NCBI GenBank assembly: GCA_036323355.1
Contig: AP028876.1
Location: 558,001-622,000 of the forward strand
Direction of reading: 5' to 3'
DNA from: Gottschalkiaceae bacterium SANA
GTDB lineage: Bacteria > Bacillota > Clostridia > Tissierellales > GPF-1
Length of the DNA: 64,000 nucleotides
The notes below the pieces were generated by a model. The model did not search any database. It saw only the letters and a program-made list of their open reading frames with translations, and was not told where the DNA came from. The position numbers and the translations under genes are program-made. Positions 5,957-27,656 of this stretch are shown in pieces. Within the stretch, counting starts at the first letter, position 1. Every line of letters begins with the position of its first letter.

Positions 5957-6763
5957 TTGAAAATTGTAGCGTGTATGAAGCAAGTCTTGGACTTGGATCA
6001 AGTGCTTTCCTCAGATTGGGTCGTACAGGAAAATCAAACCATTGATCTCTCCTATGCAAATCGCGTGATCAATACCTATGATGAATTGGGACTGGAAATG
6101 ATGTTGCGCTTGCAGGACCAAGATCCGAACTGCAAGTCCATTGCCCTCACGGTAGGAACAGAAGAAACCGAATCTATGTTGAGAAAAGCTTTGGCTCTTT
6201 TGGTGGGTGAGGCAATTCGTATCGACTGTGCAATTTCGATGAATCAGATGCCACAAGCAGTGGCGCGCATGCTTTGGGCGGGAATTGAAAAGATTGACGA
6301 TGTTGACTTGGTGATCTGTGGTCGTCAGTCGAGTGGAAGTGATTATGGACAAACGGGTCTTATCTTGGCGGAGCTTTTAAACTGGCCGTGTATTAGCTTG
6401 GTCACAGATTTTGTTCGACAAAATGATCAGTGGATGATTACGCATCAGGTGGATGATGGACTTGAGGAAGTTGTTGTAGAGGGACCTGTCGTTTTGACCA
6501 TGACGCAATCAGCAGATCACTTTTTACGCATGGCAACTCTCCGAAATACCATGGTTGCCAAGAAAAAAGAAATCACACTCTGGTCACTTTCAGAGTTGGA
6601 AAAGTGGAAATTGGCTAAAAAAGATGCAGGTGTTCGCTTGTCTAAAATCTTCACGATTGAAGATAGTAAGGATTGCGTCATGCTGGATGGGCCAGAGATT
6701 TTTGTGGATCGTATGATCAAAGAGATGAAAGAAGTGAATCGAAGTGAAGGAGTCGGCTTATGA
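5957..6763 (+). CDS. etfB: Electron transfer flavoprotein beta subunit
   Basis: 268 aa, starting with TTG 5957 (MKIVACMKQV, the standard EtfB opening). ETF-domain motifs are visible: INTYDELGLEMMLRL near the N-terminus and CGRQSSGSDYGQTG, the equivalent of the GRQ-D-GQ nucleotide-binding loop. EtfB pairs with EtfA to carry electrons from flavin dehydrogenases; some pairs bifurcate electrons between NADH and ferredoxin. The stop overlaps the etfA start (ATGA). It sits between two GlcD-superfamily oxidases, matching the etfB-etfA-glcD order of the lactate dehydrogenase/Etf complex of acetogens. Whether this pair bifurcates cannot be decided here. Confidence 0.92.
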   Translation: MKIVACMKQVLDLDQVLSSDWVVQENQTIDLSYANRVINTYDELGLEMMLRLQDQDPNCKSIALTVGTEETESMLRKALALLVGEAIRIDCAISMNQMPQAVARMLWAGIEKIDDVDLVICGRQSSGSDYGQTGLILAELLNWPCISLVTDFVRQNDQWMITHQVDDGLEEVVVEGPVVLTMTQSADHFLRMATLRNTMVAKKKEITLWSLSELEKWKLAKKDAGVRLSKIFTIEDSKDCVMLDGPEIFVDRMIKEMKEVNRSEGVGL

Positions 6764-7716
6764 CAATCGGTGTTGTCGGTGAGATGCGAGATGGAAAATT
6801 GACGCAAGAGACAATGGAATCAATTTGTCGCGCGGTTCAAGTCAACAAAGATTTGCAGATGGAGATTGACTTGGTTTTGATGGAACAGCCAGAAAAGCTT
6901 AGGTCTCCTTGGTTGGATCACTGGGGTGTGGACCACGTCATTGCCTATGAGAGTAAGCAATCAGATTGGGACATAGAAACAAAGCTTGCCGCCCTCGAGG
7001 TCTATGTTCATGAGGCAAAGCCCATGGCCTTGTTTTTTGCAGGGAGCATACAGGGACAAGAGCTTGCCCCGAGACTTGCGACTCGTTCAAAGGCATCCGT
7101 TCTTGTGGATTGCACGGCTGTTGAAGTAAACCCAATCGAGCAAGAATTTCTTGTTACCAAACCCATATATGGGGGGAATGCCTATGGAGAGTATCACGTA
7201 CCATTTCCTTGTTATTTGAGTTTTCGTGCGAAATCGATTGCGGTTGAGGTAGAAAAAGAAGCGCCGTTGTCAATCCAATGGCGAACGTTTGATGAAACAA
7301 ACAGAAAAAACGTGATTGTTAGCCGTCGATTGATTCGTGCTGCGAAGTATGATCTGGAGGAAAAGAAAGTTCTTTTTGTTTGTGGGCGAGGTCTTCAAAA
7401 ATCAGAAAATATCAAGCGAGTGGAGGCCCTTGCTTGCCGAGTTGGTGCGGGCCTTGCCGGAACAAAAAAAGCCATTGAAAATGGTTGGTTGCCTTTGGAG
7501 ACCATGATTGGTCAAACTGGGAAAATTTTGGCTCCGGAACTGTGCATTGTGCTAGGCGTATCAGGTGCAAGCCCTTTCGTTCATGGTATAAAAGGGGCTA
7601 AGAAAATCATGGCTGTCAACAAGGATGAAGAAGCGCGGATTTTTCAAGTCTCTGATATTGGGAGTGCAGATGACTGCGAGTTGGTCATCGAAGTCATGGA
7701 AAGAAAATTTGATTAA
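6760..7716 (+). CDS. etfA: Electron transfer flavoprotein alpha subunit
   Basis: 318 aa. The C-terminal FAD-binding domain is canonical (GRGLQKSENIKRVEALA, then GWLPLETMIGQTGK, PELCIVLGVSGASPFVHGI and INKD-like VNKDEEARIFQVSDIG). The N-terminus begins directly with the Etf fold, so it lacks the ferredoxin-like extension seen in EtfA of the acetogen lactate dehydrogenase complex (LctC). It is translationally coupled to etfB by a 4-base overlap. Its job is to hold the FAD that exchanges electrons with the neighbouring FAD oxidases. Confidence 0.92.
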   Translation: MTIGVVGEMRDGKLTQETMESICRAVQVNKDLQMEIDLVLMEQPEKLRSPWLDHWGVDHVIAYESKQSDWDIETKLAALEVYVHEAKPMALFFAGSIQGQELAPRLATRSKASVLVDCTAVEVNPIEQEFLVTKPIYGGNAYGEYHVPFPCYLSFRAKSIAVEVEKEAPLSIQWRTFDETNRKNVIVSRRLIRAAKYDLEEKKVLFVCGRGLQKSENIKRVEALACRVGAGLAGTKKAIENGWLPLETMIGQTGKILAPELCIVLGVSGASPFVHGIKGAKKIMAVNKDEEARIFQVSDIGSADDCELVIEVMERKFD

Positions 7717-7740
7717 AACTTATTGGAAGGAGGGAAAAGA

Positions 7741-9285
7741 ATGACGGATGAGTTGTTGCGATTTGATCAGGAACAGATTCAAGGATTTTTACAAGATGAG
7801 TCGAAATGTACGGGTTGGGCAGAGTCCATCTCTTTTCCTGAAACCGAGGAAGAAATTCAAGCTCTAGTGGCTCTTTGTCAGGGCAAGCATCTTTCCCTTA
7901 CTATTCAAGGGAATCTAACAGGGATTTGTGGCGGTGCAGTACCGCAAGGTGGGCATATTCTTAATCTTTCCAAGATGAACCGAATCCTGGAATTTAAGTT
8001 AGAGGAAGGTTTGGTGAGGGTGGAACCAGGGCTTCTTTTGCAAGATCTCAATCAAGCCTTGCGGAAAAAGCAAAGAGAAAAGGCGCTTTTCTTTCCGCCG
8101 GATCCTACGGAAGCTTTGGCGAGTATCGGGGGTATGGCAGCCTGCAATGCTTCGGGAGCAGGTTCCTATTTTTATGGGGCAACACGTAATTATGTGCATG
8201 GAATTCGCATGGTAACGGCGCAGGGTATTTTGCACGTGAGGCGAGGAGAGAAAACACAAGAGGCCTTATTGCAGGAATTGGGCGAGCCAGAGGGATCTTT
8301 TTTACTGGAAAAGAAAGTCTTGGGCAAAAATGTTGCCGGTTATGACTGGCAACCCAATGGAGATGCGGTGGATTTACTGCTGAGTTCGGAAGGAAGCTTA
8401 GGGATTATTTCGGAGCTTGAATTGCGTTTGATGCCAGTGCCTATGCAAAAAATGGGTATTCTTTTCTTTTTTCGTGAGAATGAGCTTGCCATTGAATTTG
8501 TTCGTTGGATACGGGGAGAGAATGTTGATTGGCTTGAGGAAAGACCTGTGGGTGGACCGATTGCGATTGAGTATATGAATCAATCAGCCTTTCAAATTGT
8601 GAAGGAATTTCGTGAGCTTAAACCGGAGTTGAAACGCTTTCAGCAGATTCCACACGCAGTAGAAGCGGGTGTTTACCTAGAGTTTCATGAAGAATCGGAA
8701 GAGAAAATCGAGCAAGTGGCAGAACAATTGCTTGGCTTGAATGATCATTTTAATATGGTAGAGGGTCAGGAATGGTGCGCCTTTGATGAAGAGAGCCTGG
8801 AACAGATTCGCGTTTTCCGCCATGCTGTACCAGAATGTGCAAATCTTCGCATGGTGGAGCGAAAAACCAAAGAGTCTAGACTGAGAAAGTTGGGTACAGA
8901 CTTTGCTGTTCCCAATGATAAACTGAAGGCGTGTATGATCATGTATCAACAAGGCCTTGATCAGTTGGGGATTGATTCATTGATTTTCGGTCATATTGGG
9001 GATAACCATCTTCATATTAATTTCTTGCCAAAGACTTGGGAGGAAGCGGAAAAAAGTCAATTGCTGATCGCGGAATGGGAATCGCAAGTCATTGCCTGGC
9101 GGGGAACCATTACGGCTGAGCATGGTGTGGGCCGCACCAAGCGATCAGCCTTTCAGCGCATGTACTCATCGAAAGACGTGCAAATCATGAAATCCATCAA
9201 GGAACGATTTGATCCAGAAGGGATTTTCAATCCGGGTGTCATTTTTGACGCAAAAAAACCCGCAAAGAAAAATGCGGGTGCTTGA
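7741..9285 (+). CDS. GlcD-type FAD-linked oxidase (2-hydroxyacid dehydrogenase)
   Basis: 514 aa. ATG 7741 follows GGAGGG; an in-frame ATG at 7723 lacks a site. FAD_binding_4 features include GNLTGICGGAVPQGG, ASIGGMAACNASGAGS and SEGSLGIISELELRL. The C-terminal domain has FGHIGDNHLHINFLP and ITAEHGVGRTK, the histidine motifs of D-lactate/glycolate dehydrogenases. It is the last gene of the operon and directly follows etfBA, as in lctBCD-type lactate dehydrogenases, so oxidation of a 2-hydroxyacid with electron transfer to EtfBA is the best guess. Its final codons overlap a terminator serving the opposing gene. Confidence 0.88.
   Translation: MTDELLRFDQEQIQGFLQDESKCTGWAESISFPETEEEIQALVALCQGKHLSLTIQGNLTGICGGAVPQGGHILNLSKMNRILEFKLEEGLVRVEPGLLLQDLNQALRKKQREKALFFPPDPTEALASIGGMAACNASGAGSYFYGATRNYVHGIRMVTAQGILHVRRGEKTQEALLQELGEPEGSFLLEKKVLGKNVAGYDWQPNGDAVDLLLSSEGSLGIISELELRLMPVPMQKMGILFFFRENELAIEFVRWIRGENVDWLEERPVGGPIAIEYMNQSAFQIVKEFRELKPELKRFQQIPHAVEAGVYLEFHEESEEKIEQVAEQLLGLNDHFNMVEGQEWCAFDEESLEQIRVFRHAVPECANLRMVERKTKESRLRKLGTDFAVPNDKLKACMIMYQQGLDQLGIDSLIFGHIGDNHLHINFLPKTWEEAEKSQLLIAEWESQVIAWRGTITAEHGVGRTKRSAFQRMYSSKDVQIMKSIKERFDPEGIFNPGVIFDAKKPAKKNAGA
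9252..9278 (-). terminator. Rho-independent terminator of the panE-family gene, inside the 3' end of the glcD-like CDS
   Basis: On the minus strand the hairpin CCCGCA/TGCGGG (9259-9264 with 9273-9278) is followed by seven T. On the plus strand there is no T-run after the hairpin, so it mainly stops transcription from the opposing gene. Confidence 0.8.
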
Positions 9286-26169: not shown

Positions 26170-27211
26170 TTTTTTTCCTCCTTTGGCTATGGTCTCCGCG
26201 GGTCATGTTGACGCGGAAGCCTGCAGATGCAATTCGACCTTCAATGCATTGTCGGCAATGGGCCGCTTCGTCACCGGTACAAATCTTTCCGTCGTATAGA
26301 GCGTAAAGCTCTCGGACCGAGGTGGGAGACAGATTGGGCATGACGACATTGGCGCCGGCAAGCAAACCTTGTTCTCTTCCATGCGGATTCACCGAACCCA
26401 AGGCGGTGGTAGCCGGAAGAAGCACGTCTGGCAAAATTAATCGAATGATCGACAAAAGCAGACAGGTCATTTCCAGGGTTCCCGGATTGGCATTTGCCAG
26501 GGGGGTGTCTGATTGGGGAAGAAAGGGTCCGATTCCAACCATATGTGGCTGAAGTTCCTGTAAAAACAACAGATCGTCAATCAAATCATCTTGGGTTTGA
26601 CCTGGGGCACCCACCATAAATCCAGCGCCTATTTGAAAGCCGATCTCCTTGAGATCTTGAAGGGATTGAAGACGTGTGTGATTCTCTTCTCCTTGATGAA
26701 GAGAGGCGTATAGGGAGGGGGAAGCAGCTTCGTGGCGCAAGAGGTAACGATCTGCTCCTGCGGCATAGAAGGCTTGGTAGGCACTTCTTGGCCATTCTCC
26801 AACAGATAAAGTAATGGCACAATCGGGGTATGTTGCCTTGATTCGCTTTACCAAAGACACAATTCGGTCTTCAGTATAATAGGGGTCTTCTCCTCCCTGT
26901 AAGACAAAGGTGCGATAACCAAGCCAATAGCCTTGATCGCAAGAGGTCAGGATCTGATCCTCTGTTAGCCGATAGCGTTCGACAGATTTGTTGGAGCGGC
27001 GGATCCCACAGTAGAGACAGTCTCTTTTACAATAGTTTGTAAATTCGATGAGTCCGCGCATATAAACATCCAGACCATAGTGATCGCGGCGGGCATGAAT
27101 GGCTTGCTGCTTCAGTGCAACAAGTGCAGCATCATCAAGAGCTTCAAAAAAGGAGCGCCACTCTTCACGTGTCAAGAATCGTTCATTTGTCAACTTTTCA
27201 ATCCAGTTCAT
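26159..27211 (-). CDS. hydE: [FeFe] hydrogenase H-cluster radical SAM maturase HydE
   Basis: 350 aa. Radical SAM CX3CX2C at C61, C65 and C68 (CKRDCLYCGIR), followed by GYRTFVLQGGEDPYY, the family's SAM-binding GGE region. HydE supplies part of the di-iron subcluster, thought to act on a cysteine-iron complex made by HydG. The start overlaps the upstream regulator gene by 14 bases and the end overlaps hydG by 11 bases, so translation is coupled throughout the operon. Confidence 0.95.
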   Translation of the reverse strand: MNWIEKLTNERFLTREEWRSFFEALDDAALVALKQQAIHARRDHYGLDVYMRGLIEFTNYCKRDCLYCGIRRSNKSVERYRLTEDQILTSCDQGYWLGYRTFVLQGGEDPYYTEDRIVSLVKRIKATYPDCAITLSVGEWPRSAYQAFYAAGADRYLLRHEAASPSLYASLHQGEENHTRLQSLQDLKEIGFQIGAGFMVGAPGQTQDDLIDDLLFLQELQPHMVGIGPFLPQSDTPLANANPGTLEMTCLLLSIIRLILPDVLLPATTALGSVNPHGREQGLLAGANVVMPNLSPTSVRELYALYDGKICTGDEAAHCRQCIEGRIASAGFRVNMTRGDHSQRRKKNDH

Positions 27212-27464
27212 GTGAAATCTCCTTTTTCGAAATGGCTGTTTTTACTTGGACATTAGGAATTCTTCCCAAACGTCCTGTTAGCGTGTTGATGGCATCTAAG
27301 GATCCTAATAGGGTGATTGTGATCACGGTAAGACCATGTTCTGGCATGGGTAAGCCCATTCGTCCTTTGACAATGCCCTTAAATTCAGCGATGCAATTAT
27401 TGAATCGATGTTGGTTTTGTTCCGGATTTTCCAGGATTGCGCTGATTACAGCAATTCTTTTCAT
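27198..27464 (-). CDS. TM1266-type iron-only hydrogenase system regulator
   Basis: 88 aa. The true start is ATG 27464 with TTGGGAGG upstream; a longer open frame reaches 27605 but runs through the leader hairpins. MKRIAVISAILENPEQNQHRFN and GLTVITITLLGSLDAINTLTGRLG match the small ferredoxin-like (ACT-like) TM1266 family found with hydrogenase genes. Its regulatory role is assumed from context and fold. First gene of the maturation operon. Confidence 0.88.
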   Translation of the reverse strand: MKRIAVISAILENPEQNQHRFNNCIAEFKGIVKGRMGLPMPEHGLTVITITLLGSLDAINTLTGRLGRIPNVQVKTAISKKEISHELD

Positions 27465-27474
27465 AGTTCCTCCC

Positions 27475-27505
27475 AATAAAAATAGCGTTTTCAGTAAGAA
27501 AACGC
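27475..27505 (-). terminator. Terminator-like hairpin in the leader of the hydrogenase maturation operon
   Basis: On the minus strand GCGTTTTC/GAAAACGC (an 8-bp stem, loop TTACT) is followed by TATTTTTATT and then directly by the ribosome site of the first gene. The position between promoter and first gene points to attenuation. Confidence 0.65.
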
Positions 27506-27620
27506 GCACAAGAGAAAGCAGACCCAGGGTCTGTTTAAGCTTTCTTTCGACGCAGATTTCTTTGTCGTCAGAGTTAATTGGATTGTCAAACACGCAAGGA
27601 GTCACAAGACGCCTTGGTGT
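27506..27620 (-). ncRNA. Structured 5' leader of the hydrogenase maturation operon (candidate riboswitch or attenuator)
   Basis: From the predicted transcript start near 27621 the leader can form, in order: a 9-bp stem with one bulge (27590-27599 with 27612-27620; ACAC-CAAGG with CCTTG-GTGT), a short GACG/CGTC stem (27566-27569 with 27549-27552), and a two-part hairpin (AGAAAG/CTTTCT outside CAGAC/GTCTG, within 27513-27545). These precede the terminator-like hairpin at 27475-27505. I could not match it to a known riboswitch class from memory. Confidence 0.5.
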
Positions 27621-27627
27621 TGTTAAT

Positions 27628-27656
27628 ACTTTAACAAAAATATGTAATGATTACAA
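27628..27656 (-). promoter_or_regulatory. Promoter of the hydrogenase maturation operon
   Basis: Minus strand -35 TTGTAA (27656-27651), 17-base spacer, -10 TAAAGT (27633-27628). The predicted start falls within a base or two of the first leader hairpin. Confidence 0.55.

Follow-up and report, generated by a model that had tools for sequence, protein, structure and literature searches.

Organization of the leader

The window, i.e., the whole stretch of 64,000 nucleotides analysed here, contains on its reverse strand the operon TM1266-hydE-hydG-hydF. Its leader is found at 27465-27656 (-), between this operon and the divergent folC gene, which lies from 27757 onwards, and consists of a promoter, three hairpins and a terminator that adjoins the ribosome-binding site. 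From the predicted start the leader is approximately 158 nt long. The features are as follows.

27628..27656 (-): promoter TTGTAA, 17-base spacer, TAAAGT; read from the sequence, relatives alike by eye
27620..27637 (-): Rex-type operator TTGTTAAAGTATTAACAA, a perfect 18-base palindrome over the -10 box; 0 mismatches to TTGTTAANNNNTTAACAA
27589..27621 (-): hairpin 1, at the position of family hairpin D1, loop core diverged; from folding
27543..27572 (-): D2, conserved hairpin, putatively the switching one; covariance models R1 and R2 both match it
27539..27562 (-): antiterminator 5' arm, the D2 3' half plus a tail; from folding of truncated RNA
27519..27533 (-): hairpin 3, caps the antiterminator; from folding
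27496..27519 (-): antiterminator 3' arm, contains the terminator 5' arm; from duplex energy
27475..27505 (-): intrinsic terminator, stem-loop 27505-27485 and T-rich tail 27484-27475; from folding
27469..27474 (-): ribosome-binding site GGGAGG, adjoins the T-rich tail, before ATG 27464
27198..27464 (-): TM1266 family gene, candidate partner protein; TIGR03959 87 bits, PF21699
26159..27211 (-): hydE; TIGR03956 517.5 bits
24793..26169 (-): hydG; TIGR03955 613.3 bits
23581..24783 (-): hydF; TIGR03918 524.5 bits

The initial annotation placed a plausible promoter at 27628-27656, and the hexamers are found exactly there, though they match the sigma-70 consensus weakly and an automatic scan did not list them. 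By eye, many relatives' leaders share this promoter layout, with the hairpins downstream of the promoter. Coordinates and folding also agree with the claimed three hairpins and a terminator whose T-run, here interrupted, abuts the ribosome site. The minimum free energy of the 161-nt leader is -48.9 kcal/mol, compared with -32.9 +- 3.6 for shuffled sequences (z -4.49; 0/200 shuffles as good). The leader is also open in frame with TM1266 from GTG 27605, giving 135 codons in total (27605-27198, -).

A Rex-type operator at the promoter

The TAAAGT hexamer falls within the Rex-type palindrome, which was scored against TTGTTAANNNNTTAACAA, taken by us to be the Rex operator pattern; none of 100 Markov shuffles gave a site as good. 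A Rex-type site with at most two mismatches is present in 24 of the 80 TM1266 leaders scanned. By its operator palindrome, a predicted binding site, the window promoter fits a Rex regulon.

In C. bescii, gel shifts support binding of Rex upstream of hydG, which there lies in one unit with a gene annotated as a CopG family regulator (PMC6391272), and in T. saccharolyticum a Rex site is predicted before hydG (PMC5886521). Both the operator type and the hydG target are thus alike. However, Rex works at the promoter, and a leader RNA is not described in the available portions of these two papers (PMC6391272, PMC5886521).

When the leader DNA was compared with 41 genomes including its own, the only match below E 0.001 besides itself was to a sister species of the same genus (G002, E 8e-9), and it covers the promoter and the Rex region, not the leader. 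At this place (L033 1500-1660) the sister species has no TM1266-hydEGF operon; the DNA upstream of folC, which contains a Rex-like site, leads directly into the GNAT gene that adjoins hydF in the window.

A conserved and covarying RNA family

Two hairpins are common to many TM1266 leaders from relatives and GTDB genomes. D1 is a stem built around a GAG...CUU core. D2 has the plan CCU AA NNNN AA AGA (loop) UCU RA NNNN AA AGG, i.e., three short helices separated by two well-conserved, A-rich 2x2 internal loops; a D2 subtype with a longer middle helix exists. The window leader follows the D2 plan, reading UCU-GA-CGAC-AA-AGA-AA-UCU-GC-GUCG-AA-AGA, in which the UCU-AGA and CGAC-GUCG pairs are kept, but its hairpin 1, AAGGCGUCUUGUGACUCCUU, lacks the GAG...CUU core of the relatives' D1. 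D1 is also absent by eye in two other leaders (L041 and L044), where the promoter lies close to D2.

Covariance model R1 was built from 16 homologous leaders of one D2 subtype, the window excluded. Over 22 pairs, the covariation in these leaders is 0.369, compared with 0.140 in shuffled and at most 0.136 in slid alignments. Searched against the 64-kb window, R1 gives a single match (E <= 10), which is the leader at full length, 27626-27543 (-), with 22 bits and E 0.097. Among 82 TM1266 loci, 54 match at E <= 0.06, 16 of them being the seeds, and the window's own locus (L002) scores E 0.6 in that search. Model R2 was made from 68 matches, none from the window, some of them weak and one an overlapping match on the opposite strand. 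In its 67 distinct rows the covariation is 0.452 (0.160 shuffled, at most 0.146 slid) with double changes in 20 of the 22 pairs, values that lean towards the model, since the alignment was fitted to it. R2 finds the window leader with 28.8 bits (E 0.0062), the next match in the window having 17.3 bits (E 1), while three whole-genome scans with stricter filters gave no match at E <= 0.01 in the window's own genome. The initial annotation had named the absence of covariation in homologous leaders as a refutation; covariation is present in both alignments, and the kind of covariance model it proposed does recover the window leader as the only match in 64 kb. Its second refuting condition, a real transcription start below the hairpins, is addressed by the layout in relatives, where by eye the hairpins follow the promoter too. 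Judged on sequence, the window leader is a divergent member of the RNA family.

Six leaders from Treponema MAGs (L065, L069-L072 and L074) resemble the family by eye, with hairpins and terminators, and R2 at E <= 0.01 finds L072 only. By eye, a D2-like hairpin is also seen in two leaders from genomes with a distant TM1266 (L028 and L031), and R2 does not match it.

No Rfam 15 family reaches its gathering score anywhere in the window or in the leaders of 20 loci, and the leaders of 8 loci give nothing even at E 1. A relaxed scan of the window leader yields four matches, all far below gathering score. The initial annotation could assign the leader to no known class by eye, which agrees with these scans of the window and of the homologous leaders, and the TM1266/hydEFG leader RNA is a family absent from Rfam 15.

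Mutually exclusive pairings

In the window, the duplex between the D2 3' strand and the terminator 5' arm has an energy of -17.4 kcal/mol, while the mean of mononucleotide shuffles is -8.4 and 2/1000 are as good. By script, a terminator-like site is found downstream of D2 in 66 of the 68 rows, and in 60 of these 66 the segment with which the D2 3' strand pairs best overlaps the terminator 5' arm, a count without a null. Cognate duplexes average -14.05 kcal/mol, those between mismatched leaders -9.63 (0/2000 permutations, 59 rows); z-scores against shuffles are modest, with a mean of -1.8 and 31/66 below -2. As the D2 3' strand can pair with the terminator 5' arm, D2 and the antiterminator exclude each other. 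By complementarity and folding, antiterminator and terminator are mutually exclusive as well. The architecture of a riboswitch or protein-controlled attenuator, read from this leader before, is supported.

In minimum-energy folds of the truncated window RNA, D2 forms at 84-108 nt. Once the terminator 5' arm is included, the long antiterminator (-40.9) is preferred to the fold with D2 (-32.0), and the full leader has -47.5 with D2 and terminator, -48.9 overall and -41.6 without the terminator. These energies suggest that read-through would be the default and that a factor must hold D2 for transcription to stop.

In three Peptostreptococcus loci (L050, L058 and L079) and one further locus (L145 of G565), D2 ends 10-12 nt upstream of the probable start codon (ATG) of hydG, which would allow its AAAGG to act as the ribosome site. 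Taking the terminator and the hydG ribosome-site versions together, formation of D2 would mean OFF in both designs, from which we infer that the leader is an OFF switch.

Genes downstream of the RNA

The RNA was searched in three overlapping genome sets at E <= 0.01. R1 matched in 17 of 391 genomes of the class, and R2 in 26 of 249 genomes of the order and 9 of 398 genomes of the phylum. Together the scans gave 57 distinct places in 48 genomes. The next gene, inspected at 55 of the 57 places, is TM1266 in 34 cases, hydG in 8, hydE in 6, hydF in 2 and another gene in 5, i.e., TM1266, hydE, hydF or hydG follows in 50/55. The two remaining places (G018:C51 and G090:C35) lie just upstream of TM1266 matches.

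The other next genes are of three kinds. An SsuC/TauC-type ABC permease is found in L110 (family-scanned) and in L106 and L144 (by eye); binding proteins neighbouring such permeases score above the SsuA-family cut-off in L113 and L114. A NifH-family gene is found in L098 and L112. The operon it heads also encodes two nitrogenase-component-1 proteins, a full HydE and a FecBCD-like importer, whose binding protein is assigned by PF01497 and whose other parts are assigned by eye. In L129 an ECF-like protein (PF12822, below cut-off) is followed by a distant HydE relative. In L112, the RNA is seen to head the NifH-like/nitrogenase-component-1-like/FecBCD-like/HydE operon at 8610-901 (-) of genome G166. 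SsuABC-like importers follow the RNA, or the RNA and hydE, in L106, L110, L114 and L144, and are possibly a clue to the signal.

In three loci the RNA lies downstream of a hydA-like gene (by eye) and upstream of TM1266 (L119, L120) or hydG (L117). This position suggests that the targets there are the maturation genes rather than the hydrogenase gene. L119 also contains two hydrogenase subunits of equal length and beginning (503-2704 and 6710-8911) that flank an RNA-TM1266-ECF-like unit, as if a block had been duplicated.

Autoregulation of TM1266 alone was considered and rejected, since the RNA also stands directly before hydG, hydE, hydF and transport genes.

Co-inheritance of the RNA with TM1266

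All 48 RNA-positive genomes contain TM1266 (23 + 12 + 13 in three separate checks). A sample of 100 genomes, the window's own included, contains 57 with HydE over cut-off. Of these, 25 carry a close TM1266; the RNA is found in 22 of them, the three exceptions being the window's own genome, G065 and G070. A distant TM1266 is carried by another 17, with the RNA in one, and in the 15 without TM1266 by the family model, the strict-filter scan found the RNA in none. Comparing close TM1266 with none gives a Fisher p of 2e-8, although the genomes are not independent. Across the whole sample, 28 of the 51 TM1266-bearing genomes have no RNA match (the same three exceptions and 25 with a distant TM1266).

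A local R2 search of 13 hyd loci, from 11 of the 15 genomes without TM1266, gave three matches up to E 5: one beyond hydF (G035, E 0.29) and two approximately 300 nt upstream of hydE (G015 and G041, E 3.9), which is chance level. In family f14, three species with TM1266 have a Rex-type site and the RNA, while in three without it (G015, G041 and G057) a Rex-type site lies close before hydE and a D2 leader is not seen by eye. In family f4, the sole genome with the RNA (G565) has TM1266, and the RNA is absent from five HydE genomes without TM1266 and from two with a distant one. Upstream of hydE, the three f14 species without TM1266 and leader (L157, L158 and L159) have AGAATCTGAAAGG or AGAATCTGGAAGG where the ribosome site lies; by eye these resemble the D2 3' strand and are perhaps the relic of a lost leader.

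Since the RNA mostly lies in the 5' leader of TM1266 itself, a joint loss of both can be a single deletion. Six genomes appeared to have TM1266 apart from the RNA. In G370, G121 and, weakly, G454, an RNA-like leader missed by the genome scan is found at TM1266 after all, while in G166, G210 and G295 there is no RNA before the TM1266 gene. In G166, TM1266 lies beside an smpB-like gene (by eye) and three copies of the RNA are found elsewhere.

The TM1266 protein

The window TM1266 has 88 residues, and its 87 bits compare with a curated TIGR03959 cut-off of 60.8. Its structural model (pLDDT 95) matches T. maritima TM1266 (2nzc) with Z 15.1 and aligns over 77-83 residues with the C-terminal domains of NikR (Z 11.7-13.8); however, the ribbon-helix-helix DNA-binding half of NikR is absent. 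Among 26 close sequences no Cys or His is conserved; R35, K75 and K80 are among the residues that are, as are basic residues at positions 3 and 33. The family models TIGR03959 and PF21699 call TM1266 no more than a putative regulator. A sensor domain that lacks the DNA-binding half and travels with an RNA is most simply understood as an RNA-reading regulator, and the evidence for this predicted role is circumstantial. We know of no NikR C-terminal or ACT domain that is an established RNA binder. A genome note on Thermovorax may concern this family (PMC9679718).

A model for the control of H-cluster maturation

On balance, the leader is more likely than not an attenuator of transcription, read by TM1266, by which the amount of the H-cluster maturation enzymes would be set. 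The promoter with its Rex-type operator would stand above the attenuator. As RNA polymerase leaves the promoter, D2 would form first; if it persists, the terminator would form and transcription would stop before TM1266-hydEGF. Opening of D2 would let its 3' half pair with the terminator 5' arm as the antiterminator, and the operon would be read. In some relatives, D2 would instead hide the hydG ribosome site. The factor that stabilises D2 would most likely be TM1266, acting in trans once it has either bound or released a signal of H-cluster supply, and the operon would thereby be under feedback. The computations show the conserved, covarying RNA, the genes next to it, the exclusive pairings and the co-inheritance with TM1266; RNA binding by TM1266 and the nature of the signal are, like the OFF direction, inferred. 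It can be speculated further, with somewhat less confidence, that TM1266 corresponds to the sensing part of a NikR-type regulator and, lacking the DNA-binding half, reads RNA. Loaded with an intermediate or product of H-cluster assembly, it would clamp D2 and so shut off hydE, hydF, hydG, the importers and the nitrogenase-like operon.

Alternatively, D2, perhaps with D1, could be a riboswitch whose direct ligand is a small molecule or ion from the H-cluster pathway, e.g., SAM, cysteine, tyrosine, iron or a sulfur compound, with TM1266 merely one of the regulated genes. A compact conserved hairpin with well-conserved internal loops would suit this, as would the existence of terminator and likely ribosome-site versions and the importers among the neighbours, riboswitch regulons often including importers. 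However, a self-sufficient riboswitch needs no protein partner, and TM1266 is present in every genome with the RNA, three of them having no RNA before the TM1266 gene, while the scan found the RNA in none of the 15 HydE genomes lacking TM1266. This co-inheritance favours control by a protein, and we regard a riboswitch as less likely, though as the main rival.

It is far less probable that the leader is passive, its stable hairpins and fixed terminator lowering basal expression and all real control being exerted by Rex. The perfect Rex-type palindrome and the gel shifts reported upstream of hydG in C. bescii (PMC6391272) agree with such a role of Rex, but the compensatory changes, the exclusive pairing with the terminator and the position of D2 at the hydG ribosome site all indicate switching, and the three f14 species keep their Rex-type site (by eye) with neither a D2 leader nor TM1266. 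Attenuation by a leader peptide or a T-box, with which the general architecture of leader and terminator would be compatible, we consider least credible of all. In the window leader no short open frame comes with a ribosome site, such a combination is found in 7 of 68 leaders when 14.2 are expected from mononucleotide shuffles, and the T-box model RF00230 matches neither the window nor the leaders of 20 loci in the Rfam scan, which did find T-boxes elsewhere in 2 of these 20 loci.

If the reading as a TM1266-dependent attenuator is correct, H-cluster assembly would be controlled at the RNA level and TM1266 would be a new kind of RNA-binding sensor protein. A defined RNA, hairpin and partner make both the control of enzyme supply and the role of TM1266 directly testable, and the neighbouring importers and the nitrogenase-like operon may belong to the same chemistry. 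Among the top-ranked matches listed in searches of the open-licence literature there is no hyd leader RNA, nor, in the text available for them, a description beyond Rex of how the supply of maturation enzymes is matched to need. The words hydrogenase, hydE and hydG do not occur in the accessible main text of RNA-discovery papers and one review (PMC8632094, PMC11109978, PMC6429828, PMC2864571, PMC2965389, PMC7266159), and neither does hydF in the RNA-discovery papers, the review aside.

Comparison with known attenuators and riboswitches

The design of the leader resembles two groups of known systems. In protein-controlled transcription attenuators and antiterminators, such as the two-hairpin RNAs of ANTAR/EutV, LicT/SacY and PyrR, a leader hairpin and the terminator share sequence and exclude each other, as they do here, and a protein in trans would make the choice here too. 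However, neither the hexaloops of ANTAR targets nor the RAT sequence is seen by eye, and the candidate partner is a protein of the NikR-C/ACT fold with other targets than those of the ANTAR, LicT and PyrR systems. The direction would also differ: the hairpin of ANTAR systems prevents termination when formed, while D2 would free the terminator instead. The second group is the transcriptional OFF riboswitches, such as SAM-I and TPP, with which the family shares an upstream hairpin whose 3' strand is the antiterminator, as well as the occurrence of terminator and likely ribosome-site versions. It differs from them in having no Rfam match and in that its conserved unit is a single short hairpin with two 2x2 internal loops.
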